This document shows positions 2,647-17,433 of a stretch of 61,107 nt of DNA, one piece after another. The position numbers and the translations under genes are program-made. The notes beneath the pieces are model-generated. The model ran no database searches. It was not told where the DNA came from and saw only the letters and a list, made by a program, of their open reading frames with translations. The first letter of the stretch is position 1, and every line of letters starts with the position of its first letter. The stretch is from contig JANYDF010000088.1 in assembly GCA_025359905.1 (NCBI GenBank), positions 1 to 61,107 of the forward strand, written 5' to 3'. This DNA is from Rhodospirillales bacterium. Lineage in GTDB: Bacteria; Pseudomonadota; Alphaproteobacteria; Acetobacterales; Acetobacteraceae.

Positions 2647-4637
2647 TGCCATAGCGCCAACGCCAACAACAAACCGACCAACGCGGCAAACACGAAGCTG
2701 AGATAGCGGCGGATCGACAGGAATTGCATGTGATCGAGCAAGCCGGAGACCCAGTTCACTGCGGCAGTGACGGGCACATACAGACTTTCCCACGCCAGAT
2801 CATGCGACTGCTTGCGAATGCGCGCTGGCCCGATTTCGCCCGGCGGCGGCATCGTCACCACTTCGCTCGAACGAAACACGTAGCTACCGAACACCCGCCG
2901 GATTGGCTGGGACAGGCTGGCGGCAGAATATTGCGACGCTTGTCCCAGGCCCGGATAGCCGCAATCCCACAAGGCGGCCCGCCGCACCCCGCGCGCCGCC
3001 AGCCGGTGAACCGCAAAGGCCACCAGCATCGCCGAGATGAGGGTGAACACGAAAATCATCAGGCCGTTGTAGGAACTGCGGCCGTTGTCGATTGGCACAA
3101 TCGACAGCCACGGCAGGCTGAGTTGCGCCGGCATTCGCGCCCCAACAACGCCCTGCACCGCACGCGCCAGCGCGTCGATCGCCAATCCGGGCAGCAAACC
3201 AATCACCACGCACAGCGCCGCGAAAATCAGCATGGCGGCCAGCGAGAACCGATCAGCCTCTGTCGCGTGTTCGCCTGCGGCGGAGCGTTGGCGGCCGAGA
3301 TAAGTAATGCCGAAGCCGCGCACGAAACACGCCGCAGCAAATGCCGCCGCCAGTGCCAGTAATGTGCCAGCGGTCGGCACCAGCAGCTTCAGCCCCCATT
3401 GCGGCAAGTCGGGGCTAACCAGAACGCTTTGGAACAGTAGCCATTCGGAGGCAAAGCCGTTCAACGGCGGCAGTGCGGAAGCAGCCAGACAGGCGGTCAG
3501 CACGGCCGCCGAGGAGACCGGCATGCGATGGATCAGTCCACCCAGCCGTTCGATGTTCAACTCGCCCGTGGCCACCTGCACTGTACCGGCGCCGAAGAAC
3601 AATACGCTCTTGAACAGCATATGGTTGAAGGCGTGGAACAGTGCTGCGGTCAACGCCAGGGCCTCGGCGGTGAGCATCGCGTTGGCGCGAAACGCCAGCG
3701 CCAAGCCAAGCCCGGCAAACACGACGCCGATGTTCTCGATGGTGCTGTACGCCAGAAGCCGTTTCAGGTCGCGTTCCATCAGCGCGTACAGCACGCCAAC
3801 TGCGGCGGTGGTGCCGCCCAGACTCAGCACCGGCACGCTCCACCACCAGTCCGGCGGTCCCATCAGGTCGAAGACAATCCGGATGAAGGCATAGATGGCG
3901 ACCTTGGTCATCACGCCCGACATCAGCGCCGAGACGTGGCTCGGCGCCGCAGGATGCGCCAGTGGCAGCCAGACATGCAGCGGAACCAGCCCGGCCTTCG
4001 ATCCGGCGCCCAGCAAGGTGAGCGCCAGCACCAAAGCTGCTGTGGGATGTGCGGCCCCGCGCATCGCCGCGAAGCCATAGTTGCTGGCCGCACCAGCGAG
4101 CAGACCGAACGCCAGCAGCAGCGCCAGACTGCCCATTGTCGCCATCAGCAAATAAATGAATCCGGCCCGCACGTTGCTCGGGCCGCGATGGTGGGCCATC
4201 ACCAGAGCCCAAGACGTCAGCGACATCACTTCCCAGGCGAACAGAAAACTGAATGCGTCGTCGGCCACGATGACCAGCGACATGCCGCCAAGAAACGCGG
4301 GGTAGAACGGCAGCACCCGCTGCTGTTCGTGTTCGTGGCGGCCGTAGCCCAGCGCATAAAGCGAGGCGCCGGTGCCGCCGACGTACACGATGCCAAGAAA
4401 GCAGGCGCTCAGCGCATCAAGCCGGAAATGCGCACCAAGCCACGGCAGGCCGATCGGCAGAACCACGTTTCCCGGGCCCCGGAACAGCGACAGGCCCGCC
4501 ACGATAGCGCCGGCGGCGCAGAGTGCGAGGCTGGTGCCATATACGGTGCGGCGCCCCACCCTGGCAGTCCCGGCCAAGGCGGCGAACAGCCCGAGCAGGA
4601 ACAGGGCGGCGGCGGCGGCAAGCACCAGCGCAATCAT
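2643..4637 (-). CDS. hyfB: Hydrogenase-4 subunit B-like proton-pumping antiporter subunit
   Basis: This 664-residue NuoL/MrpA-like protein has an N-terminal antiporter core and a long C-terminal extension ending in a last membrane helix, the usual length for HyfB/HycC. Diagnostic stretches are KAGLVPLHVWLPLAHPAAP and ERDLKRLLAYSTIENIG. It also carries FAWEVMSLTSWALV, where the glutamate is the conserved transmembrane acid. It is the first gene of the leftward hyf operon. No catalytic, iron-sulfur or nickel subunit is in the window, so whether this is a true hydrogenase or a repurposed proton-pumping module cannot be decided here. Confidence 0.92.
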   Translation of the reverse strand: MIALVLAAAAALFLLGLFAALAGTARVGRRTVYGTSLALCAAGAIVAGLSLFRGPGNVVLPIGLPWLGAHFRLDALSACFLGIVYVGGTGASLYALGYGRHEHEQQRVLPFYPAFLGGMSLVIVADDAFSFLFAWEVMSLTSWALVMAHHRGPSNVRAGFIYLLMATMGSLALLLAFGLLAGAASNYGFAAMRGAAHPTAALVLALTLLGAGSKAGLVPLHVWLPLAHPAAPSHVSALMSGVMTKVAIYAFIRIVFDLMGPPDWWWSVPVLSLGGTTAAVGVLYALMERDLKRLLAYSTIENIGVVFAGLGLALAFRANAMLTAEALALTAALFHAFNHMLFKSVLFFGAGTVQVATGELNIERLGGLIHRMPVSSAAVLTACLAASALPPLNGFASEWLLFQSVLVSPDLPQWGLKLLVPTAGTLLALAAAFAAACFVRGFGITYLGRQRSAAGEHATEADRFSLAAMLIFAALCVVIGLLPGLAIDALARAVQGVVGARMPAQLSLPWLSIVPIDNGRSSYNGLMIFVFTLISAMLVAFAVHRLAARGVRRAALWDCGYPGLGQASQYSAASLSQPIRRVFGSYVFRSSEVVTMPPPGEIGPARIRKQSHDLAWESLYVPVTAAVNWVSGLLDHMQFLSIRRYLSFVFAALVGLLLALALWQ

Positions 4638-5028
4638 AACGCCGGCCGCCGCAATTCCGGCGCGGAGTTCGGATTCAACCGCATATCAACAACCATTGCA
4701 GGTGCATGAATGTGTGTTGCCTTTGCTCAGGCCGTACAATGACCATCCTTCTGATCAATCCTCCCTGAACAGAGCGGCGTCAGCGCAGATACGTTCAAAA
4801 TGACGTTGGCGGGCAGCATGGACCCGCGCCTTGCGGTTTCAGTCCACACGAGATTGCGCGGCACCCGCGATTGTGGCGCATGGCGGCTGGGCTGCGGTTT
4901 TCGAATTTATATCGCCGGCAACTAGACGATTGCCGTCTGGCGAGACGCTGCGCGCGGCAATCCGCCGCAACCCGGCCCCATCCCGCAGCGGGAGGGGGCC
5001 GCTCGAACGCGATCGATTGGCCTGCGGC
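4638..5028. other. 391-bp intergenic region upstream of hyfB
   Basis: No convincing gene lies here. A long plus-strand frame starting at 4831 has no family resemblance and runs antisense into the DUF3830 and nucleoside hydrolase genes. The part near hyfB (about 4680-4800) is locally more AT-rich and must hold the hyf promoter, but I could not pick a clear sigma-70 or sigma-54 element. The part near 5000 holds a strong hairpin described separately. Confidence 0.6.
4974..5000 (-). terminator. GC-rich hairpin after the DUF3830 gene
   Basis: GGCCCCATCCCGC is followed directly by its near-perfect complement, giving a 12-bp stem with one A/G mismatch and a three-base loop. It lies 29 nt downstream of the stop codon of the leftward DUF3830 gene. 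There is no T-run on either side, so it may be a processing or attenuation hairpin or an interspersed repeat rather than a classical intrinsic terminator. Confidence 0.5.
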
Positions 5029-5505
5029 TTAGCTGCCGCGCGAAATCTCGACTGTTTTGATACCCTCGACGCGAATATTGCGGCAGGCTGCCGCAAAAGC
5101 GTCCAGGCCCTCGACCATGCAGCCGAAGATGTTGCACGGCGTCCAGCCCAGCGGGCCAAAGATGCGGCCGCCGTCGCCGTAGAACATGCCGATTTCCCAC
5201 AACTCGTCCGTCAGTCCCTTCATCATGCCGGGGGCCTGATAAAACCACAGACAATCGCCCGCGACCGGGAAGCAGGTTTGGTTCTCCACCGGAATGCCGC
5301 GCGGGTCGAAGGTTTGCGCTTCCGGCGGCAGGCCGAGCATGATCTCAGGGCCGGCAAACATCGCGTGCATCGCCGGGATCAGCAGTGGCTTGGCCAGCGC
5401 CTGCCAGATGGCAGCGCAGGTCTGCGGCGCATGAGTTTCGTACAATTTGACAGTGCCGCTGGCGCCGCCCTCGACGAATTTGAACTTCAATGTCCGACCG
5501 CTCAT
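5029..5505 (-). CDS. DUF3830 family protein (cyclophilin-like fold expected)
   Basis: This 158-residue soluble protein has no signal peptide. The order KFKFVEGGASGTVKLYETHAP, then GPEIMLGLPPE, then ENQTCFPVAGDCLWFY matches the DUF3830 family. As I recall, the family has a small cyclophilin-like barrel and often sits beside amidase, hydantoin or nucleobase catabolism genes. Its biochemical role is not known to me. It is followed on the same strand, 61 nt upstream, by the nucleoside hydrolase start side of the pair, so the two are likely co-transcribed with the hydrolase first. The neighbourhood suggests a role in nucleoside or nucleobase use, which is inference. Confidence 0.75.
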   Translation of the reverse strand: MSGRTLKFKFVEGGASGTVKLYETHAPQTCAAIWQALAKPLLIPAMHAMFAGPEIMLGLPPEAQTFDPRGIPVENQTCFPVAGDCLWFYQAPGMMKGLTDELWEIGMFYGDGGRIFGPLGWTPCNIFGCMVEGLDAFAAACRNIRVEGIKTVEISRGS

Positions 5506-5566
5506 CCGAGGCTCCCGTTACCTGACCCCCCAAGCCTGCGGGGCCCGCCAGCCAGTGTCAATTTTC

Positions 5567-6511
5567 TCACGGCAAGCGCGCCAGCCGTTCCAGCATCAAT
5601 TCGTAGAACGCCGGGCTGTCCAAATCGCGCAACACGCGGCAATTGGGCGGGCGTTTGGTCACGCCCCACCAATCCACCACCGTCATGCCCAGCGTCTCGG
5701 GCGACGTGGTTTCAATTGCAACGTAACAGTCGCGCCCACCAAACAACTGTGGCGCCAGCAAATAGCCGATCACGCACGGGTCGTGCAGCGGGTAGTCGGC
5801 GGTGGCGAATTTGGTGTTGCCGTAACGCTGATAGAATTCGCCCATGCCCGCTGCCTGCAAGCCGGTGCGGTTGCCCAGTCCGCGCAGGCGCGCAATCCAT
5901 TGCCGGGTCATTCGCGCCTTATAGGTGCAGTCGATCGGCACCATGGTCAACTTCACGCCGGAGCCGAACACCACGTGCGCCGCGTGCGGATCGACGAAGA
6001 TGTTGAATTCGGCAGCCGCGGTGATGTTGCCGCCCTCGAAGAAGCCGCCGCCCATCAGCACCACTTCGCGGATGCGCGGCACGATGCGTGGTTCCATGAC
6101 CATCGCCATCGCCAGATTGGTCATCGGGCCGAGCGTGCAGACGGTGATCTCGCCCTCCGGCGCGTCCATCAGCGTGCGTATCAGGAATGGCACCGCGTGC
6201 TCCGCCTGCACCGCGATGCGGGGCGGCGGCAGGTCGCAGCCGTCCAGCCCGGTCTCGCCGTGCACGTATTCCGCCGTAATCAGCGGCCGGACCATCGGGC
6301 GCGGGCAGCCGGCGAACAGCGGAATGTCCGGCCGCCCGGCGAGTTCCAGCAATTGCCGCGCGTTGCGCGCCGTCACCGCCAGTGGCGTATTCCCCGCTGA
6401 GGCGGTCAGCGCCAGCACCTCCAGGTCCTCCGGAGAACCGAGGGCAAACAGGATCGCGAAGGCATCGTCCTGGCCCGGATCGGTGTCGATAATGATCTTG
6501 CGCGGGGCCAT
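5567..6511 (-). CDS. Nucleoside hydrolase (inosine-uridine preferring family)
   Basis: This 314-residue enzyme cleaves the N-glycosidic bond of ribonucleosides to free base and ribose. The N-terminal calcium-binding signature DTDPGQDDA is at residues 9-17. A second conserved asparagine/aspartate region, ECGAAAEFNIFVDPHAA-like, appears mid-protein (AAAEFNIFVDPHAA), and the C-terminal LHDPCVIGYLLAP supplies the last metal-binding aspartate. The length fits the IU-NH family. It diverges from the binding-protein gene of a Liv-type importer across an 89-bp gap, which suggests the importer brings in nucleosides. Base specificity cannot be read from the sequence. Confidence 0.9.
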   Translation of the reverse strand: MAPRKIIIDTDPGQDDAFAILFALGSPEDLEVLALTASAGNTPLAVTARNARQLLELAGRPDIPLFAGCPRPMVRPLITAEYVHGETGLDGCDLPPPRIAVQAEHAVPFLIRTLMDAPEGEITVCTLGPMTNLAMAMVMEPRIVPRIREVVLMGGGFFEGGNITAAAEFNIFVDPHAAHVVFGSGVKLTMVPIDCTYKARMTRQWIARLRGLGNRTGLQAAGMGEFYQRYGNTKFATADYPLHDPCVIGYLLAPQLFGGRDCYVAIETTSPETLGMTVVDWWGVTKRPPNCRVLRDLDSPAFYELMLERLARLP

Positions 6512-9536: not shown

Positions 9537-10275
9537 TATTTCGGTCGCCTTCGGCGGCTTCCAGGCCCTGCGCTCCGTGTCGGTGCAGGCAGCACCCGGC
9601 AGCATCGTCGGGCTGGTCGGCCCGAACGGCTCGGGCAAATCCACGTTGCTCGACGTCATCGCCGGGCTGCGCCAGCCGGACGGCGGCAAGGTGCAACTCG
9701 ACGGTGCAACCGTCCCGCTCGGGCGGCCCGACGTGGTGGCGGGCTTCGGCATCGGCCGGGCGTTTCAGGTGCCGCGCCTCGCCCGCCGCCTGACGGTGTT
9801 TCAAAACGTCATGGTCGGCGCGCGCGGCCAGTCTGGCGAGAAATTGTCCGACTTATTCCTGCGTCCCGGCCGGGTGGCGCGGCGGGAGCGGGAGGTGGAG
9901 GCGGCAGCGCGCGACATTTTGCGCCGCCTCGATCTATCGCACAAAGCCAATGATTATGCGTCAGACCTATCCGGCGGCCAGCAGAAACTGCTGTCGATGG
10001 GCATCCTGCTGATGGCCCACCCGCGCGTGCTGCTGCTCGACGAACCGGCGGCGGGCGTCAACCCGGTGCTGATCGAACGGCAAATCCGTTTCCTGCGTGA
10101 ACTGCGCGATGAGGGCCGCATCATTGTGCTGGTCGAACACAACATGGAAATGGTCGCTAACGTCTGCGATCACATCTTCGTGCTCGACGCTGGCGAGGTG
10201 ATCGCCGCGGGCACGCCGATGCAAATTCGCGCCGACGCCCGGGTGATGCGCTCGTATCTGGGCCAGCCGGCATGA
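9520..10275 (+). CDS. livG: Liv-type ABC transporter ATP-binding protein (LivG family)
   Basis: This 251-residue ATPase has Walker A GPNGSGKST, ABC signature LSGGQQKLLSMG and Walker B VLLLDEPAAGVNP. The next loop, IIVLVEHNMEMVANVCD, holds the switch histidine. The LivG-type insertion after the Walker A domain is present (RAFQVPRLARRLTVFQNVM). I chose the ATG at 9520, giving MLIAADISVAFGG; the longer frame from 9448 has a low-complexity, cysteine-rich N-terminus that is livM read out of frame. The start lies inside the 3' end of livM. Confidence 0.88.
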   Translation: MLIAADISVAFGGFQALRSVSVQAAPGSIVGLVGPNGSGKSTLLDVIAGLRQPDGGKVQLDGATVPLGRPDVVAGFGIGRAFQVPRLARRLTVFQNVMVGARGQSGEKLSDLFLRPGRVARREREVEAAARDILRRLDLSHKANDYASDLSGGQQKLLSMGILLMAHPRVLLLDEPAAGVNPVLIERQIRFLRELRDEGRIIVLVEHNMEMVANVCDHIFVLDAGEVIAAGTPMQIRADARVMRSYLGQPA

Positions 10276-10985
10276 CGGCGCTGGCGCTGTCCGGTGTGGT
10301 GGCGGGCTACGGCGCCATCACGGTGCTGAACGGCGTGTCGTTGCAAGTCGGCGACGGCGAGGTGCTGGCGGTACTGGGGGCCAACGGTTCCGGCAAATCG
10401 ACAGTGCTGAAAACCGCCATCGGCCTGACTCGCATGACGGCCGGGCGGATCGATTTCGCCGGACAAGACATCTCCACATTGCCCGCGCACCGGCGCGCCG
10501 CCCTCGGCATGGGTTACGTACCGCAAACGCGCAACGTGTTCGGCGAACTCAGCGTCGCCGACAATTTGCGCATGGGTGGCTATTTACGCCGCGACGCGCT
10601 GGGGCCGGACCTCGACCGCGTGTTCACGCTGTTCCCCCGCCTGCGCGAGCGCAAACGCGAACTGGCCGGCAACCTCAGCGGCGGTGAGCGGCGTATGCTG
10701 GCCATTGGCCAAACCTTGTTATTGCGCCCCAAACTGCTGCTGCTGGACGAGCCGAGCAGCGACCTGTCGCCGGTGATGGTGGGACTGGTGTTCGACGCCA
10801 TCCGCCGCATCCGCGCCGAAACCGGCATTCCGGTGCTGCTGGTCGAGCAAAACGTGACGATGGCGCTGTCGCTGGCGGATCGCGTGTGCGTGCTGGTGCG
10901 CGGGCGGGAGGCGCTGGATGTGGCGGCCTCGGCGTTGGAGATGGCGGATTTGCAGGCGTTGTTTATGGATGGGGGGGTGCGGTAG
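10272..10985 (+). CDS. livF: Liv-type ABC transporter ATP-binding protein (LivF family)
   Basis: This 237-residue ATPase is the second energising subunit of the importer. It has Walker A GANGSGKST, signature LSGGERRMLAIG, and Walker B LLLLDEPSSDLSP followed by VLLVEQNVTMALSLAD. The usual LivF interface segment GMGYVPQTRNVFGELSV is present. The start overlaps the livG stop as ATGA. It is the last gene of the importer; a weak pair of hairpins follows about 80 nt downstream. Confidence 0.9.
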   Translation: MTALALSGVVAGYGAITVLNGVSLQVGDGEVLAVLGANGSGKSTVLKTAIGLTRMTAGRIDFAGQDISTLPAHRRAALGMGYVPQTRNVFGELSVADNLRMGGYLRRDALGPDLDRVFTLFPRLRERKRELAGNLSGGERRMLAIGQTLLLRPKLLLLDEPSSDLSPVMVGLVFDAIRRIRAETGIPVLLVEQNVTMALSLADRVCVLVRGREALDVAASALEMADLQALFMDGGVR

Positions 10986-11065
10986 GGGCGCATGCCCCGC
11001 TGGGTGCAGCGGTGATCTTGCATTGCAGCATTGTGCGGCTGTGCCGCGCGTGGTTGCATCTCGTA

Positions 11066-11111
11066 GGGCGATTGGTAGGGTCGGATCGCCCCGTTGCGCG
11101 TAACTCAACGG
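11066..11111. terminator. Two small hairpins between livF and the PqqD-like operon
   Basis: GGGCGAT (11066-11072) pairs with ATCGCCC (11085-11091) across 12 nt, and CCGTTG (11091-11096) pairs with CAACGG (11106-11111) across 9 nt. Neither has a T-run. They lie in the 148-bp gap between the importer and the next operon and could end the first transcript or shape the leader of the second. No precursor-peptide-sized frame with a convincing ribosome site lies in this gap. Confidence 0.35.
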
Positions 11112-11133
11112 TCAGACCGCACGGAGCGACACG

Positions 11134-11574
11134 ATGCCGGCCTCGCTGGATCAAGAGTTCTGTTTGCCCGGACCCCAGGTTATTTCTCGGGATTTCGGCG
11201 ACGAAATGGTTGTGGCCAATCTCGACACTGGCTTGTTTTACAGCCTTGGCGGTTCTGCCCCGGCGATTTGGAGCGGACTCCTGGCGGGCCATACCGGCCG
11301 GCAGATTGCCGCCGCGCTGTTCGGCAGCGATCCGGCCACCCACGTTACCGCCGTGGCACGTTGCGTCAGCGAATTGCTTGCCGAGCAATTGCTGATCCCT
11401 GCCGAAAGCACCGCCATTACGGCGGCTGCGGCCGCCCCTGCCGCCATCGCATTCGCCGAGCCTTCGTTGGAGCGTTTCGACGACTTGCAGGGGCTGTTGC
11501 TGGTGGACCCAATCCACGATGTCAGCGAGGCCGGGTGGCCCGTCTTGCCGCCTGCGGACGTGACTGCGGGATAG
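11134..11574 (+). CDS. PqqD-like (RiPP recognition element) protein with conserved-looking C-terminal tail
   Basis: This is a 146-residue soluble protein. Residues about 10-88 fit the PqqD family fold, a small winged helix that binds peptide substrates of modifying enzymes. The stretch runs VISRDFGDEMVVANLDTGLF, then APAIWSGLLAG, then CVSELLAEQLLIP. An Ala/Pro-rich linker follows, and then a distinct tail at residues about 109-139 containing LERFDDLQGLLLVDPIHD and AGWP. PqqD relatives next to HprK-like kinases are known, possibly the HPr-rel-A group of TIGRFAMs, but I could not check this. The gene begins a five-gene operon and its stop overlaps the kinase start. Its partner peptide is not evident. 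Confidence 0.78.
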   Translation: MPASLDQEFCLPGPQVISRDFGDEMVVANLDTGLFYSLGGSAPAIWSGLLAGHTGRQIAAALFGSDPATHVTAVARCVSELLAEQLLIPAESTAITAAAAAPAAIAFAEPSLERFDDLQGLLLVDPIHDVSEAGWPVLPPADVTAG

Positions 11575-12605
11575 TGGTGGTGCAAACGCCGGTCCAGCGT
11601 GCCGTGGATACCGCAGCGCTGCTGCAACCGGCCGCGATGCTGCGGTTGGCATTGCCGTGCGGCATTGTGCGGCTGCATTTCGCCACCCCGGCGCTGGGAA
11701 CGATGTTCGTGCCGGCGTTTCTGCCTGCGGAGCCGGGGGCGGAGACGGGGGCGGACCCTGGGGCGGAGACGGGGGATGTCTGGGATATCTTCGTTACTGC
11801 CGGCGATCAAGGCACGGCCGCGCCCGCGCTGGTGCCGCCTGATCCTGGCGGCGAGATGATCCTCAATGCGGATGCGGCGGCGTTCGGGCTGTGGATGGGG
11901 CGGCACACGCCTACTTTGTATGCGGTCGATCTCCTGCGCCGCCGCGCTTTATATTGGGTGGCGCGTTTGGCCAGCGTGCCCGCGTGGGAGCGTGCCCGCC
12001 CATTTCTGCCGATCTTTCAGGCGATGCTGGACGCAACGCCGTGGATTGCTGTGCATGCGGCGGCAATCGCGTGGCAGGGCAGGGCTGTGCTGCTCGCAGG
12101 CGCCGGGCACGCGGGCAAGACCAGCCTTGCACTCGCTGGCCTGTGCGCCGGCTGGCGCTTCGCGGGCGACGACTTCGTGTTGTTGCGCACCGGCACCGCA
12201 CCGGAGGTGGCCCCACTTTATGCCACGGCGCGATTGCGCGACGACATGCTGCCCCAGTTTCGCGCGCTGGAGGCGGCGCGGCGCGAGATTTCCGGCGACG
12301 ACGGCGAACGCCGCCACGAATTGTCGTTTGGCCGCATGGCGGACGCGGGCGAGATTGGTGGCGCTCCACTCGCGGCAGTGTTTTTGCTGGACCGGCGTGG
12401 CGCGGCGACGCCGCAATTCGCGCCGGTCAGCCGCACCGCCGTGTTGGCGGCATTGGCGGCCAGCACCGCCACCGCAGCGCCTGGCAACGGGGCGGCGCGC
12501 ACGGCGAAGCTTATGCAAGCATTGACCGGGCAGCGCCCGCAACGGTTTGATCCGGGCGGCGGGTTCGCTCAAGCGCTGGCTGCGTTGGCGGCAGCGGTGG
12601 CATGA
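11574..12605 (+). CDS. HprK-related P-loop kinase
   Basis: This protein is about 343 residues long. A P-loop, AGAGHAGKTS, is at about residues 173-182, preceded by WIAVHAAAIAWQGRAVLL and followed by WRFAGDDFVLLRTG. This is the arrangement of HPr-kinase-like domains, where the acidic pair follows the P-loop. The N-terminal half resembles nothing I can name and contains an acidic repeat, PGAETGADPGAETG, encoded by a 15-nt tandem duplication near 11730-11775. No ATG fits; GTG codons at 11574, 11577 and 11580 are candidates, the first overlapping the PqqD-like stop. The true substrate is unlikely to be HPr, since no PTS gene is near. Confidence 0.75.
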   Translation: MVVQTPVQRAVDTAALLQPAAMLRLALPCGIVRLHFATPALGTMFVPAFLPAEPGAETGADPGAETGDVWDIFVTAGDQGTAAPALVPPDPGGEMILNADAAAFGLWMGRHTPTLYAVDLLRRRALYWVARLASVPAWERARPFLPIFQAMLDATPWIAVHAAAIAWQGRAVLLAGAGHAGKTSLALAGLCAGWRFAGDDFVLLRTGTAPEVAPLYATARLRDDMLPQFRALEAARREISGDDGERRHELSFGRMADAGEIGGAPLAAVFLLDRRGAATPQFAPVSRTAVLAALAASTATAAPGNGAARTAKLMQALTGQRPQRFDPGGGFAQALAALAAAVA

Positions 12606-13276
12606 CCGGACCCACCGTCAGCGCGATCGTGCCGGTGCACAATGGCGCGCAGTATATCGCGGCGGCGATACGAAGCATCCGTTCGCAGACAAGGCCGGTG
12701 GATGAAGTCATTGTGGTCGACGATGGCTCGACCGATGCGACGGTGGAGATTGTGCGGCGGACTGACCCCCACGCTATCCTGATCTGCCAGCCGCAAGGTG
12801 GCCCGGCACGGGCGCGCAATGCCGGCGCGGCGCAGGCCAGCGGCACATGGCTGGCGTTTCTGGACCATGACGACTTATGGCCGGTAGAGCGCACCGCAGC
12901 CCTGCTTCGCGCGGCGGCGGCAAACCCACTGGCTGGGTTAGTGTGCGGCCGGACGCGGATTGAAGAAATGCCTGGTGCAGTAACCGATGCGCGGCTGCGG
13001 CGGGCCGACGGCACGCATGTGCCGTTCCTGTTTCACAGCCTGCTGGTGCGCCGCGACCTTTGGCTGGTGGCCGGCGGCATGAGCCCGGCGTTTAGCCATG
13101 GCGAGGATTTGGATCTGTACCTGCGCCTGATCGACGCGGGCGTCACGCTGGCCAAGGTGGATGCCGATGCGCTGGTTTACCGCCAGCACGCCGGCAATCG
13201 TTCGCGGCTGGTGGATGTGTCGCAAGCGGCACTGCTGACGGCGATGCGCGGCGCGATCCGGCGGCGGCGGGAATGA
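12602..13276 (+). CDS. Family 2 glycosyltransferase (GT-A fold)
   Basis: This is a 224-residue soluble GT-A transferase. It has the nucleotide-sugar-binding start VSAIVPVHNGAQYIAAAI, the EVIVVDDGSTD motif and the metal-binding AFLDHDDLW acid cluster. The C-terminal half is short, ending soon after the GEDLDLYLRLIDAG acceptor-side motif, and there is no membrane helix. The start overlaps the kinase stop as ATGA. A second, similar transferase follows immediately, so the pair may add two sugars in sequence. Donor and acceptor cannot be inferred. Confidence 0.88.
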   Translation: MTGPTVSAIVPVHNGAQYIAAAIRSIRSQTRPVDEVIVVDDGSTDATVEIVRRTDPHAILICQPQGGPARARNAGAAQASGTWLAFLDHDDLWPVERTAALLRAAAANPLAGLVCGRTRIEEMPGAVTDARLRRADGTHVPFLFHSLLVRRDLWLVAGGMSPAFSHGEDLDLYLRLIDAGVTLAKVDADALVYRQHAGNRSRLVDVSQAALLTAMRGAIRRRRE

Positions 13277-13983
13277 TGCACGACCAGCCTTTGACGATCT
13301 CGGTGCTGGTAGCGTGCTGGAATGGCGAACGCTACGTGGCGGAAGCGCTCGAATCGATCCTGCGGCAGGAACCGCCGCCTGGCGAAGTGATCGCGGTGGA
13401 CGATGGCTCGACAGACGCAAGTGCTGCCGTGATGGCCAGCTTCGCGCCGCGCGTGACGCTGCTACGGCAGTCCAACCAGGGCGTTGCCGCAGCGTTGGAC
13501 GCTGCTGCTGCGCGGGCCAGCGGCGAGGCCATTGCGTTTCTGGACGCCGACGATCTGTGGCTGCCGGGCAAGCTGGCGCGGCAGTCGGCGGCACTGGCAG
13601 CCGATCCAGCGCTGGATGGCGTGTTCGGCCATATGAGCTGCTTCGCCAGTCCCGACTTGCCGGAGGCGGAGCGCGCCACGCTTCGCATCGACGCGAGCGC
13701 TGTGCCTGGCTTGGTGAAAGGGGCCCTGCTGCTGCGCCGCGCGGCGTTCGACCGCATCGGCGGGTTCGGCCGTGGGCCGCGCGCGGCAGATTTCATCGCT
13801 TGGTATGCCCGCGCTGCTGCACTGGGCTTTCATTGGCGGATGCTGCCCGAGACAGTCTGCTTGCGGCGAATTCACCAGGCCAACATGAGCCGCAGCAACC
13901 GTCCGCAGCAACACGCCGATTATTTGCAGGTGATGCGCGACTCGCTGGTGCGGCGGCGCGCGGTGCAGGACCGCGGCGCATGA
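13273..13983 (+). CDS. Family 2 glycosyltransferase (GT-A fold), second copy
   Basis: This 236-residue soluble transferase resembles its upstream neighbour in length and plan: ISVLVACWNGERYVAEALESI, VIAVDDGSTDASA, then AIAFLDADDLWLPGKLA. The later acceptor-side region, RGPRAADFIAWYARAAALGF, differs from the GEDLDLYLRLIDAG of the first copy, suggesting a different acceptor. It starts at 13273 (two tandem ATGs close to the overlap) and overlaps both neighbours by 4 nt, so it lies within the same coupled operon. Confidence 0.87.
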   Translation: MMHDQPLTISVLVACWNGERYVAEALESILRQEPPPGEVIAVDDGSTDASAAVMASFAPRVTLLRQSNQGVAAALDAAAARASGEAIAFLDADDLWLPGKLARQSAALAADPALDGVFGHMSCFASPDLPEAERATLRIDASAVPGLVKGALLLRRAAFDRIGGFGRGPRAADFIAWYARAAALGFHWRMLPETVCLRRIHQANMSRSNRPQQHADYLQVMRDSLVRRRAVQDRGA

Positions 13984-15890
13984 CCGGCCCGCTATTGTCG
14001 GCGCGCGAGCGCTTCCTGCTACGTGCCTGCCTGTGCCAAGGCGCCGATGTTCGGGACGCCTTTGCCGCATGGCACCCGTTTGCCAATCCGGCTGCGATGC
14101 AAGGGCGCGAATTGCGGCTGATGCCGATGCTGCTGGCAAGCTTGCGGCGCGAGGGCATCGATGACCCGATCTTGCCGTGGCTGCGCGGCCACGCCAAGCA
14201 CATCTGGCTGGCTGGCGCGTTGCGAATGCGCACCCTGCGCGCCGGGCTCGACACATTGCAGGCCGAGGGTATGCCAGTGGTGCTGCTCAAGGGCGCCGCC
14301 TTGTTGGCCCGTTGGCGTGGCGAGGCGGAAACGCGCCCGATGGGCGATTTCGACCTGCTCGTGCCGCGCGAATTGGTACGAAACGCCCTGGCTGACTTGC
14401 ACACCGTAGGGTGGCACGGACCGGCGGCCGATCTGGTGACCGAGGACGATCTGCAACGCTTTCACGCGCTCGCGATGTTGGATAAGGCTGGCAACGCGCT
14501 GGATATTCATTGGCGGCCCGCCGAGGCGATCCTAGATTCCGCGCATGCCGACGGCGTGTTCGCCCGCAGCGTGGAAGCGAGCATCGACGGGCGGCGCTGC
14601 CGGGTGGCGGGGCTGACCGACCATCTGTTCGTGTTGCTGGCTCACGCGTTGCACAATCAGGTCGCGCAGCGCTGCGATTGGGTTGCCGAAGCGGAGATGG
14701 TGCTGCGGTGCGCGGCGCCGGACGACTGGGATTGGCCGCTGTTTCTGGTGCTGTGCCGCCAATACCGGCTTGAGGCCTGGGCGCGGCGGTCACTGTCGCT
14801 GGTGAGCGCGGTGTCCGGACGCGTACTGCCGTCCGGTGCGCCGCATGCCGGCTCGACCAGCGCGCGTTGGGCGGGTGCCACGCGGCGGCGGACAATTCCG
14901 GCACGTTCAGCGCGCCCCGCGCCGGAGACGCCCATGGCCGCCGTCGAGGACCCGGAGGCGGCCTTGTATGCGGCGCTGGCACGATATGCATCGTCGCGTC
15001 AGTTCGCCATAGCAAGCCCGGACGGCCTGGATTTCGGCTTGCAGTCCGGCGGCGCGTCGTTCCTCGGTGGTTGGTCGGTGCCGGAGCAGGGCGGTCGTTG
15101 GAGCGATGGCGATATCGCTTTGATGGCCCTGCGCGTGCCCGGCGGCCAAAGCGGCGACCCGGTGTGGCTGCGCCTGCACGCGCGCCCGTATTTGCCGGAT
15201 GCCGACTCGCAACTCGACATCACCGTCTGGGCCGGGGATGGCATGATGCGCTGGCACTATGCGCACGGCGACGCTGGCAGCCAGGTGGTGGCTGGGCGGC
15301 TGCTGCCCTGGCGTGACAGCGCAGTGTTGCCGCTATGGCTGCGTTTCGACGGGCTGATGCCAGCGTGGGACCGGGTGCGTTTGGACCGTGATCCGCGCAA
15401 ACTTGGGATCTTCCTGCGCAGCATCGTGGCGCCCCACGCCATCCCGCGCCTCGCCGGACCGTTGCATCTGAGCGAGCCGGCAGCGGATCTGGTGGCCGTT
15501 AGCGGTTGGAGCGGTGCCGAGCCGACGGGGCGCTGGAGCCTCGCGGCCGAGGCGCAATTGCTATTTCGTCTCGCCGACACACCCCCCGCAGCCGTCGAAT
15601 TGCTGTTAAGCCGCTGTTACTCGGCGGATGCGCGCGGACAGCGGGTGCACGTGCTGGTGAATGGCAAAATTCGTCTGCGCACGCTGATCCCCGGCGACGA
15701 AGATGCGGCCCCCCTCGGCACGGATCTTGGCCACCTGCTGACGGTCTCGCTGCCGGACGGCTTATGCGCGGGCGCCGTAATCGATCTGCGGCTGCGCATC
15801 GCGGCCCCGGTTTCGCCACTCTCGCTCGGCCGCTCCCGCGATGGCCGCAGGCTGGGCATTCAGCTACGCGAGGTTCGCCCCGCAGCGTGA
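13980..15890 (+). CDS. Nucleotidyltransferase-family protein fused to two repeated beta-type modules
   Basis: This protein is 636 residues long. Residues about 1-280 match the uncharacterised nucleotidyltransferase family often found in polysaccharide or RiPP loci: VVLLKGAALL, then RPMGDFDLLVPRE with the DxD metal pair, then LDIHWRP. An Arg/Pro-rich linker lies at about 285-320. After it, two segments carry the same signature at about 361-378 (GGWSVPEQGGRWSDGD) and 505-522 (SGWSGAEPTGRWSLAA), some 145 residues apart. This suggests duplicated beta-sandwich modules, perhaps carbohydrate-binding. A separate start at 14934 is possible but has no ribosome site. It ends the operon and overlaps the second glycosyltransferase as ATGA. 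Confidence 0.72.
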   Translation: MTGPLLSARERFLLRACLCQGADVRDAFAAWHPFANPAAMQGRELRLMPMLLASLRREGIDDPILPWLRGHAKHIWLAGALRMRTLRAGLDTLQAEGMPVVLLKGAALLARWRGEAETRPMGDFDLLVPRELVRNALADLHTVGWHGPAADLVTEDDLQRFHALAMLDKAGNALDIHWRPAEAILDSAHADGVFARSVEASIDGRRCRVAGLTDHLFVLLAHALHNQVAQRCDWVAEAEMVLRCAAPDDWDWPLFLVLCRQYRLEAWARRSLSLVSAVSGRVLPSGAPHAGSTSARWAGATRRRTIPARSARPAPETPMAAVEDPEAALYAALARYASSRQFAIASPDGLDFGLQSGGASFLGGWSVPEQGGRWSDGDIALMALRVPGGQSGDPVWLRLHARPYLPDADSQLDITVWAGDGMMRWHYAHGDAGSQVVAGRLLPWRDSAVLPLWLRFDGLMPAWDRVRLDRDPRKLGIFLRSIVAPHAIPRLAGPLHLSEPAADLVAVSGWSGAEPTGRWSLAAEAQLLFRLADTPPAAVELLLSRCYSADARGQRVHVLVNGKIRLRTLIPGDEDAAPLGTDLGHLLTVSLPDGLCAGAVIDLRLRIAAPVSPLSLGRSRDGRRLGIQLREVRPAA

Positions 15891-16056
15891 CCGTCTCGCG
15901 AACGCACCTGCCCGCCCGGTTCAATTCAACCCAAGCCGCAATTCGTCCCAACGACGCGCTCGCACCAAACCGGATCTTGCAGCGAACAGGCCGAAACAGC
16001 CAGTTGACGCACCCGCCCGCGCAGCGAACACTTGTTTCCTATCAGGAGCGGTGCGC

Positions 16057-17433
16057 ATGAAAACCTTCATCCACGGCGGCTATCTGCTCACCATGGCGGG
16101 GCCGGAGATCGAACTGGTCAGCGATGGCGCGCTGGTGATCGAGGGTGACCGGATTTTGGCGGCGGGGCCGACGGCCAGCCTTGCCCAGCACCGCGACACT
16201 GCCGATCGCACGATCGATGCGCGCGGCCATGCCATTCTGCCGGGTTTCGTCAACACCCACACCCATCTGGCAGGGGCGTTGACCAAAGCCATCACCGAGG
16301 ATGTGCCGACCTTCGGCGGGCCGTTTCGCATCGCGCTCGGCATGCACGAGAATGTGATCCGTAAGGAAGACGTGCTGCTGCCCGGCATGGTGCATGGCGT
16401 GGAGATGCTGAAGACCGGCACCACGACCATCAACGAATGCTGGTGGCATCAGCCGCAATCGGCGCGGATTATCGAGCAGGTCGGGCTGCGCGGCATTGTG
16501 GCGGCGGAAATTCGTGAGGTGGATAGCTCGAAGATCGGGTTTGGCCGCATCGACCGCAACTGGGATTACCGGCTGGTCGAGGAGGGGCTGGAGGAGGCGC
16601 ACGAGCTATTCGAGAATTGGCACGGCCGCGCCAACGGCCGCATCACCGCGCGGGTGGCGCCGGACGGGCCGGACCGGCTGCGGCCGGAAACCATGGGCAT
16701 GTTGGGCGACCTGGCGCGCAAGCATGGCGTGGGGCTGCACACGCATTTGTGCTCGGTGCCCGGCGAGGCTGAGTTCATGACGCAGGCGTGGGGTAAGAAA
16801 TCCATCCCGCTGCTGCGCGATCTGGGCATGTTGGGGCCGAACTTTATCGGCGCGCACTGCGTGTTTGTCGATGACGAGGATATCGCGATTATGGCGCAAA
16901 CCGGTTCGTGCATGTCGCACACCGCGTTTCTGGTGGCCAAGCGCGGCTATTATCCGCCGATGGACAAGATTTATCCGTCCGGCATGAAGGTGTCGCTGGG
17001 CAGCGATTGGCTGTCCAACGATATGTATAAGGTCATGCGCTCGGCGATTGTGATTCCGCGCGCGGTGTTCCGCGACGTGTCGATCCGCAACGCCGCCGAC
17101 GTGCTGCGCATGGCCACCATCGGCGGCGCGCAGTGTCTGGGGTTAGACAGCGAGATCGGCACGCTGGAGGCGGGCAAGAAGGCCGACGTGCAGATTATCG
17201 ACATGCGCACCGCGTGGTGCCAGCCGCTGCGCACGCAGAATATCGTCGCCAATCTGGTGTACAACGCCAACGGCAGCGATGTGCGCTATGTCTTTGTCGA
17301 TGGCGAATTGCTGGTCGATGACCGCAAGTTGACGCGGTTCGACGAAAGCGACTTGCTGAATGAGGCGCAGGCGGTGGCGGAAAGCGTGTGGGGCAAATCG
17401 CAGCATTTGTTCGCGGCGGAGGGCATGCCGTGA
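16057..17433 (+). CDS. Amidohydrolase-superfamily deaminase (cytosine/8-oxoguanine/TRZ-ATZ type)
   Basis: This 458-residue metal-dependent hydrolase has the full metal set: H68 and H70 in NTHTHLAG, H228/H230 in LHTHLC, H267 in GAHCVF, and D317 in LGSDWLSNDM. The late KADVQIIDMRTAWCQPL returns to the small beta-domain. The ATG at 16057 follows a CAGGAG site at a normal distance; the longer frame before it is not family-like. The gene overlaps the next oxygenase gene, whose GTG start lies in its stop. It probably deaminates or dechlorinates a ring compound such as a purine or pyrimidine; the exact substrate is open. Confidence 0.87.
   Translation: MKTFIHGGYLLTMAGPEIELVSDGALVIEGDRILAAGPTASLAQHRDTADRTIDARGHAILPGFVNTHTHLAGALTKAITEDVPTFGGPFRIALGMHENVIRKEDVLLPGMVHGVEMLKTGTTTINECWWHQPQSARIIEQVGLRGIVAAEIREVDSSKIGFGRIDRNWDYRLVEEGLEEAHELFENWHGRANGRITARVAPDGPDRLRPETMGMLGDLARKHGVGLHTHLCSVPGEAEFMTQAWGKKSIPLLRDLGMLGPNFIGAHCVFVDDEDIAIMAQTGSCMSHTAFLVAKRGYYPPMDKIYPSGMKVSLGSDWLSNDMYKVMRSAIVIPRAVFRDVSIRNAADVLRMATIGGAQCLGLDSEIGTLEAGKKADVQIIDMRTAWCQPLRTQNIVANLVYNANGSDVRYVFVDGELLVDDRKLTRFDESDLLNEAQAVAESVWGKSQHLFAAEGMP

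Follow-up and report, generated by a model that had tools for sequence, protein, structure and literature searches.

What do the enzymes of a bacterial gene cassette act on when a peptide recognition element heads the cassette and, as far as tested, no separate gene encodes a peptide for it? The cassette in question lies on contig JANYDF010000088.1 (assembly GCA_025359905.1) of a Rhodospirillales bacterium of the Acetobacteraceae. The window, that is the whole stretch of DNA analysed, comprises 61,107 nucleotides. Five open reading frames (ORFs) on the same strand occupy 11134–15890 (+), with successive overlaps of 1, 4, 4 and 4 nt, as stated in an earlier note on this DNA. They encode a PqqD-like RiPP recognition element (RRE), an HprK-like kinase, two glycosyltransferases of family 2 (GT2) and an NTP_transf_5 nucleotidyltransferase (NTP transferase). 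The first protein carries a C-terminal tail with a leader-like motif and a core-like conserved peptide. This tail is fused to the RRE in every case read and is possibly the peptide that the partner enzymes work on.

The first protein and its RRE fold

The first gene and the parts of its product are located as follows.
11134–11574, + strand: RRE (PqqD-like) protein with its own C-terminal tail, 146 amino acids (Pfam PqqD, AlphaFold 2, VIA-align)
11158–11403, + strand: RRE domain, residues 9–90 (stretch aligned to TbiB1, 5v1u_A)
11404–11451, + strand: Ala/Pro-rich variable linker, residues 91–106 (66-sequence alignment, top-residue frequency 0.22)
11452–11469, + strand: leader-like motif FAEPSL (FxxPxL), residues 107–112 (motif counts in tails, model confidence)
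11506–11541, + strand: core-like conserved peptide DPIHDVSEAGWP, residues 125–136 (invariant residues in 15 of 15 proteins)

The sequence of the first protein matches the PqqD model of Pfam with an E-value of 0.0042, below Pfam's cut-off; all three relatives tested exceed this cut-off. The AlphaFold 2 (AF2) model, calculated from 66 sequences, has a predicted local distance difference test score (pLDDT) of 86. In VIA-align it superposes on 5v1u_A (TbiB1 with leader) with a Z-score of 11.0 and an r.m.s. deviation of 1.7 for 81 residues. Further structural matches are 5v1v_A and the lasso B1 protein 6jx3_B (Z-scores of 10.8 each). The lasso PqqD models of NCBIfam are the commonest matches of the aligned proteins, and lasso_PqqD_Bac is found in 65 of the 66 members at E ≤ 0.01. 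Neither lasso model comes near its cut-off with the window protein itself. As modelled, the first protein has the winged-helix fold of RREs (PqqD fold); the PqqD likeness that the earlier note had read from the letters is weak in sequence and clear in structure.

The tail is more conserved than the RRE domain

Relatives were collected by a genome scan in which the pattern LL[LT][LVI]DPIH[ED] was required. Among 204 stretches with this pattern 193 were confirmed and the best-scoring 80 were kept. Six of the 80 had no called RRE gene and the scan counts rest on the remaining 74 loci. Genes of the relatives were called by a codon-usage predictor, which placed the starts of two window genes, the first and the third, too far inside. 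The tails number 73, with L109 omitted for its length (by reading, probably a wrong start in GC-rich DNA). The alignments contain the window together with 65 of the 74 loci for the RRE, 46 of 51 kinases and 24 of the 73 tails. A set of 15 proteins represents the window's class; two of these (L086 and L089) belong to the scan set too, under the names L097 and L154.

Tailed RREs occur in at least 15 phyla (69 of the 74 loci have a named phylum) and many come from metagenome bins. The kinases of tailed loci likewise come from 15 phyla. Of the 395 genomes in the order, 7 match the alignment of RRE and tail. Within the class, 40 of 385 genomes match at E ≤ 0.001 and only 11 places in 9 genomes reach the tail part.

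After residue 90 the chain continues with the variable linker, followed by FAEPSLERFDDLQGLLLVDPIHDVSEAGWP. The consensus of this C-terminal end is FxxPxL...LLxDPIHDVxxxGWP. Asp125, His128, Gly134, Trp135 and Pro136 do not vary among the 15 proteins of the class, which have down to 25% identity with the window protein. In the RRE domain of the same proteins only Glu24, Gly33 and Trp46 are invariant. The mean top-residue frequency is 0.64 for residues 107–120 and 0.78 for residues 130–136, compared with 0.48 for the RRE (residues 9–90) and 0.22 for the linker (residues 91–106). The value of 0.95 for residues 121–129 is partly forced by the scan: conservation at the positions of LL[LT][LVI]DPIH[ED] is a selection artefact because the pattern was required there. 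In the aligned sequences the tail is more conserved than the RRE domain.

Positions free of the scan pattern are conserved as well. Among the 73 tails, Asp is present at position −4 in 71 and Met at position −3 in 71, and GWP follows at most 11 residues beyond the pattern in 69. The motif [FYW]xxPx[LIVFAM], which lies outside the scan pattern, is fixed at position −14 in 70 of 73 tails and is found at 3 of 7186 other positions of those proteins. The core-like peptide DPIHDVSEAGWP has one match in the window at two or fewer mismatches and none in 100 shuffles. Position −2 is Ala in 11 loci, eight of which lack HprK; all eight belong to Chloroflexota.

In the AF2 model an extra strand is formed by residues 111–115. 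The pLDDT is 92 for residues 101–110, 84 for residues 111–120 and 56–68 for residues 121–146, which are less certain. As modelled, FxxPxL may form an extra strand that is bound in its own chain.

Some tails deviate from the common form. The RRE protein of L035 (7479–8036) has a second, degenerate tail start (LPLERFDQLW) ahead of the full tail. In L091, L094 and L095 the tail is shortened to ...LALDPPLPAAPR or similar; a GT2 and two NTP-like genes are present there, and HprK was called in two of the three. The tail of L096 is broken off by the contig end.

Search for a separate precursor

The earlier note had seen no precursor peptide gene. As far as tested, this is true of a separate gene, yet the first product itself carries a fused peptide with a leader-like and a core-like part. 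None of the 74 loci contains a second copy of the tail motif. Searched with the tail alignment by itself, the own genome yields a single place. Against 299 genomes of the phylum the same alignment gives six matches. One is the window itself, four are RRE-tail fusions and the last is a weak match (E 0.005) that could not be read as a tail. The tail is fused to an RRE in every case read.

Furthermore, 1223 short intergenic ORFs around the 74 loci were compared. No widely shared ORF was found among them, although a unique precursor that is not shared would escape this comparison. The groups common to several loci are one low-complexity set of four loci, sets from three cyanobacterial loci and locus pairs. 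An ORF of 57–58 amino acids after the NTP transferase gene in L137 and L149 is one such shared pair. A separate, widely shared precursor gene was rejected as a candidate: apart from the low-complexity group of four, no short ORF group occurs in more than 3 of 74 loci. The short gene that the earlier note had proposed to look for in the neighbourhoods of homologues was not found as a widely shared element. A precursor search based on short ORFs fails here.

Partner genes around tailed RREs

The order RRE-kinase-GT2-GT2-NTP transferase is found in the window and in L034, L036, L082, L083, L084, L086 and L090, with flanks that differ by eye; conservation of the five-gene order had been suggested as a check, and the order does recur in other genomes. 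In L084 the NTP transferase gene is interrupted by the contig end. The contiguous order is present in 5 of the 74 scan loci (L097, which is the contig of L086, L121, L128, L130 and L158). A path from RRE and kinase via glycosyltransferases or other genes to the NTP transferase is present in 24 of 74. Within eight genes of the tailed RRE, any glycosyltransferase is found in 66 of 74 loci, HprK in 59 and the NTP transferase in 48. The tailed RRE is the anchor and its partners vary.

ATP-binding cassette (ABC) proteins of one sequence cluster are located near 33 of 74 loci. Judged by length and hydropathy, an MsbA-like exporter is present in 19 of these 74; the rest are lone ATPases or cut genes. 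Five MsbA-like proteins were tested with Pfam. Four contain ABC_membrane and ABC_tran, that of L129 contains only ABC_tran, and none contains C39. A protein from a cluster similar to ABC-2 permeases occurs in 5 of 74 loci, and ABC2_membrane was confirmed with Pfam for L110. Full polysaccharide transport is no constant companion of the homologues; the earlier note had named its constant presence as an outcome that would speak against its proposal. The other operon proteins (114 of 116, with the 25 commonest families examined) include sulfotransferases (9 of 114 have Sulfotransfer_3) as well as methyltransferases, epimerases and AMP-ligases. In L085, L102, L144 and L172 HprK and GT2 are fused in one protein of 580–612 amino acids, which suggests that kinase and GT2 serve one pathway.

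Enzymes of the cassette

The remaining features of the cassette are the following.
11574–12605, + strand: HprK/PEPCK-fold kinase (Hpr_kinase_C and HprK_rel_A, below cut-offs; AF2 fold)
about 12099–12125, + strand: kinase P-loop GAGHAGKTS, with GDD after the P-loop
12602–13276, + strand: glycosyltransferase family 2, first copy, DDGS and DHDD (PF00535, 9.5e-33; motifs)
13273–13983, + strand: glycosyltransferase family 2, second copy, DDGS and DADD (PF00535, 7.5e-28; motifs)
13980–15890, + strand: NTP_transf_5 nucleotidyltransferase with C-terminal extension, domain at about 14106–14807 (PF14907, 9.4e-25, residues 43–276)
about 15063–15425 and 15498–15875 (within 15063–15875), + strand: two DUF7024-like C-terminal regions (DUF7024 below cut-off)

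The second ORF has a possible GTG start at 11574, within the stop codon of the first. Its product matches Hpr_kinase_C of Pfam with an E-value of 0.025, below the cut-off, and HprK_rel_A with 3.7e-8 and 32.8 bits, compared with a cut-off of 200 for TIGR04352. The AF2 model (47 sequences) has a pLDDT of 86.4 and aligns over nearly its full length with phosphoenolpyruvate carboxykinase (PEPCK) 1j3b_A (Z-score of 18.0, r.m.s. deviation 4.7, 296 residues). The PEPCK fold is related to that of HprK. In the model, the second protein has an HprK/PEPCK-type fold, in agreement with the P-loop kinase of the earlier note. His160, Gly175 and Asp198 are invariant in the 47 kinases, and Lys181 of the P-loop and Asp199 are nearly so. 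The window kinase has 17–30% identity with the 46 others.

The kinase tree has 28 changes of phylum label, with a minimum of 14 and a shuffled mean of 36.3; none of 200 shuffles is as low. In this tree 11 of 52 inner branches are starred and the window kinase forms a long branch. The aligned kinases suggest some clustering by phylum plus some horizontal spread.

The assignments of the two GT2s and the nucleotidyltransferase stand as first read. The best NCBIfam match of the first GT2 is MftF, with 75.5 bits compared with a cut-off of 280. The NTP_transf_5 protein carries the motifs RPMGDFD and DIHW. Residues of catalytic type, as we presume them to be in kinase, GT2s and NTP transferase, are kept in the cassette enzymes according to motifs and alignments. 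The NTP transferase had also been described as having repeated tails. Both of its C-terminal regions do contain GWS..E..GRWS and R.LGI.LR. The alignment score of 48 does not set the repeat apart, however: shuffled sequences have a mean of 32.2, a standard deviation of 5.8 and a maximum of 56 in 500. DUF7024 matches at about 15483–15668 (E 1e-4, 22.6 bits, cut-off 24.4). Regions similar to this end (window 15063–15875) recur in further large proteins of this family and possibly constitute a shared carbohydrate-binding or docking domain. DUF7024-type proteins are linked to polysaccharides.

No segment of the five proteins reaches the hydropathy of a membrane helix. The best mean over 19 residues is 1.55, compared with 2.76 in a neighbouring permease-like protein, and the earlier description of all five as soluble is borne out. 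The gene upstream ends at 10985, which leaves the 148 bp noted before; judged by its sequence, we take it to belong to a branched-chain-type ABC transporter operon. Downstream, from about 16051, lies what is presumably an amidohydrolase-like gene, on the same grounds. In the codon usage of the window the five cassette genes score per length below their neighbours. DNA of 9600–17400 was compared with 20 relatives, and insertion into a known site is not demonstrable from this comparison. The cassette was matched mainly in G006 (67% identity), with short matches in a few others. The remaining matches are scattered and mostly concern the part of the query with ABC genes.

Tail-less RRE loci

Similar enzymes also accompany RREs without a tail. 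In L106 (Bacillota bin, 2938–6210), a tail-less RRE of 101 amino acids, a Transglut_core3 (B2-type) gene, HprK and an NTP transferase are located upstream of a tailed cassette. An ORF of 31 amino acids lies ahead of this tail-less set. The own genome has a second locus (L033, 5825–8394, contig C25) with NTP_transf_5, an RRE-HprK fusion and an ORF of 63 amino acids without a family. The fusion protein reaches 114 bits for HprK_rel_A and 20 bits for PqqD_rel_X, both below cut-off. By eye, the 63-residue ORF contains a ERREFLARAAKIG-A-rich stretch that resembles a Tat-type signal; the locus is possibly another small peptide system. Among 150 genomes the kinase-NTP transferase locus of C25 has one other noteworthy relative, and no short peptide is common to the two. 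L182, located in a relative, has an HPr-rel-A kinase and PqqD above both cut-offs and NTP_transf_5; its RRE of 99 amino acids is tail-less. Since these three sets contain them, tailed and tail-less RREs share kinds of enzymes.

B2-type genes above cut-off are present somewhere in 16 of 50 genomes with tailed cassettes (from 80 loci). The tailed cassette of L138 (Oscillatoria sp. PCC 10802) has two B2-type matches at a distance of about 10 kb, provided that contig C3 is that record, which its coordinates suggest.

What the tail may do

The peptides that RRE domains are known to hold have their genes elsewhere. Possibly, and this is the reading we tentatively favor, the RRE of the cassette holds its own tail and presents the core-like peptide to the partner enzymes. 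The RRE would bind the leader-like FxxPxL strand in its own chain, and the held strand would present LLxDPIHDVxxxGWP. The HprK/PEPCK-fold kinase would add a phosphate to the held peptide and the two GT2s would attach sugars. The NTP_transf_5 protein would add a nucleotidyl group or a phosphate-linked sugar, as PMC8498205 reports for the pseudomycoidin enzyme. In some relatives an MsbA-like exporter nearby could follow. That the tail is the chemical acceptor, in which order the steps follow and what product results are inferred. In favor of this reading are the conservation of the tail, the fixed place of its leader-like motif, the modelled strand, the fusion in every case read, the constancy of the tailed RRE among varying partners, the HprK-GT2 fusions, the kept residues of catalytic type and the chemistry known from pseudomycoidin and LPP. 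The tail-less RREs of L182 and L106 accompany other gene sets, which also speaks for it. Phospho- or glyco-modification of a peptide had been suggested for this cassette before; the gene logic of RRE-dependent systems agrees with it, and the peptide within the PqqD protein had been overlooked.

Several observations weigh against a held and modified tail. No Ser or Thr is conserved in it: position −5 is Ser or Thr in 59 of 74 loci but Asp in the window, a C-terminal Ser is present in only 6 of 59 HprK-bearing loci, unlike paeninodin, and two HprK-bearing tails contain no Ser or Thr at all. HprK is absent within eight genes in 15 of 74 loci (in 10 of 59 when 6 kb or more of downstream sequence is required). 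The leader-like motif is present in 11 of 15 class tails and missing in L035, L036, L086 and L088; by reading, it is also missing in all four further fusions (L212–L215). The three tails that stop soon after LDPP lack H...GWP, and their GT2 and NTP-like genes are kept. No peptidase that could release a product is among the 25 commonest families of the 114 other operon proteins. Finally, the core-like part is far more conserved than the variable C-termini of LPP precursors (PMC13381572). Because no Ser or Thr is conserved, the acceptor would be a conserved residue of another kind (Asp, His, Glu or Trp), or the tail only docks the enzymes.

Docking is the basis of an alternative that is only a little less probable. 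Here the start of the tail would clip onto the RRE, DPIHDV..GWP would dock enzymes or the exporter, and the substrate would be a glycan, a lipid or another small molecule. The missing hydroxyl acceptor fits this scaffold, extreme conservation suits a binding motif, and the sulfotransferases, methyltransferases, epimerases and AMP-ligases among the neighbors suit a glycan or small-molecule product, as do the ABC-2-type permease-like proteins in 5 of 74 loci. However, the tail is kept where HprK or the NTP transferase is not nearby, so docking of just one of these enzymes does not explain it. An RRE, moreover, normally holds a leader so that the part downstream of it enters the active sites of the enzymes. 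A held substrate peptide and a scaffold are nearly equal in weight, with the former slightly ahead.

The other alternatives are considerably less probable. Tethered tails can autoinhibit, and the tail might be a pseudo-leader that shuts the RRE groove until a precursor from elsewhere in the genome competes with it. Lasso and LPP systems, whose RREs bind leaders encoded separately (PMC8498205 and PMC13381572), speak for such a gate. The short-ORF comparison found no widely shared group to supply that precursor and gating leaves the conserved part past FxxPxL unexplained, so this is improbable. Control of a polysaccharide, with kinase and RRE regulating the GT2s, would account for the GT2s themselves, for DUF7024-type ends in other large proteins and for the occasional ABC-2-type permease-like proteins; no polymerase or flippase was noticed in the cassette or in partner clusters recurring in more than 20 of 80 loci, and we regard it as very unlikely. 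Least of all would we expect a decayed paeninodin-type lasso or LPP cluster that has lost precursor, peptidase and cyclase. Kinase and NTP transferase are indeed common to those systems, and the lower codon-usage score of the five genes is as for acquired DNA. On the other hand, the catalytic-type residues appear intact in the sequences, and both tailed RREs and their kinases are spread over 15 named phyla, with the window kinase as divergent from the other kinases as stated above.

If the tail is held and modified, the family could represent a pan-bacterial class in which a precursor is fused to its own recognition element, so that each RRE molecule carries one leader-like and one near-invariant core-like peptide, decorated with phosphate and sugars; this wider claim is doubtful at present. 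An invariant core in at least 15 phyla suggests that the product is conserved, for instance a cofactor, a glycan primer or a carrier, and not a variable antibiotic. Pyrroloquinoline quinone and mycofactocin are comparable in this respect. An RRE with its own leader-like strand would alter searches for such systems, and the tailed family points to an unrecognized, broadly conserved phospho- or glyco-product. Small proteins and the presence of the cassette in named strains make the system directly testable. These strains include Spirosoma panaciterrae DSM 21099 and Novosphingobium sediminis NBRC 106119.

Comparison with known systems

The combination of RRE, HprK-like kinase and NTP transferase is known from LPP and paeninodin-type lasso systems, and PMC7533575 already lists lasso clusters in which genes for a nucleotidyltransferase, an HPr kinase and a GT2 occur. 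For the tailed RRE family no description was found in the literature searched, mostly without subscription journals and preprints. The earlier label of an undescribed system therefore holds for the tailed family within that literature and not for the enzyme combination.

Discrete lasso RREs are reported to recognize the leader motif [Y/W]xxPx[L/V/I/F/A], and LPP leaders share part of it (PMC13381572). FxxPxL of the tail resembles this motif. Like LPP systems, the cassette has a discrete RRE, an HprK-like kinase, an NTP transferase and a related leader motif, and no cyclase among its genes (PMC13381572); an MsbA-like exporter is a further likeness in 19 of 74 tailed loci. The LPP kinase phosphorylates a Ser (PMC13381572). 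In LPP systems the precursor LppA is a separate gene product with a variable C-terminus, whereas here the leader-like and the core-like part belong to the RRE protein itself and are conserved across phyla. LPP systems have an SpI peptidase; glycosyltransferases are found near 66 of 74 tailed loci. An SpI-like signal peptidase is not present in the five cassette proteins (Pfam) or among the 25 commonest families of 114, and no MsbA-like exporter is among the five window proteins (Pfam). The tail consensus differs from the LppA motif YxxPxVLxHQxIxFETxxS, which itself was not searched for.

Paeninodin- and pseudomycoidin-type lasso tailoring resembles the cassette in the HPr-kinase homologue, the nucleotidyltransferase and the B1-type RRE. 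For pseudomycoidin, kinase and nucleotidyltransferase yield a phosphoglycosylated peptide, with a phosphate on serine and then hexoses on the phosphate (PMC8498205). The cassette differs by having no B2 match in its own genome, no precursor gene found and an unconserved C-terminal Ser. The B2 leader peptidase (Transglut_core3) has no matches in this genome, which is 97.56% complete. The macrolactam cyclase C (Asn synthase) is outside the 25 commonest families of the 114 operon proteins; the own genome was not searched for it. A lasso peptide cluster was considered and rejected on the missing B2 match. The cassette shares parts of LPP and paeninodin-type systems but, as far as tested, is without a separate precursor or the known peptidases. 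We do not count it as a member of either the lasso or the LPP systems.

HPr-rel-A systems (TIGR04352 kinase, TIGR04353 PqqD) have an RRE and an HprK-like kinase as well, and NTP_transf_5 too in L182. The window kinase reaches 32.8 bits against 200, however, and the RRE of L182 is short and tail-less. In mycofactocin biosynthesis the RRE MftB and the GT2 MftF act on a conserved peptide. RRE and GT2 are common to both systems and the first GT2 of the window matches MftF best in NCBIfam, but it misses the cut-off by far, and no radical SAM protein is among the 25 commonest families of 114. In borosins the substrate peptide is fused to the methyltransferase that modifies it. The cassette would be similar in that the substrate peptide is fused to a protein of its own pathway, with the difference that here the partner is the recognition element.

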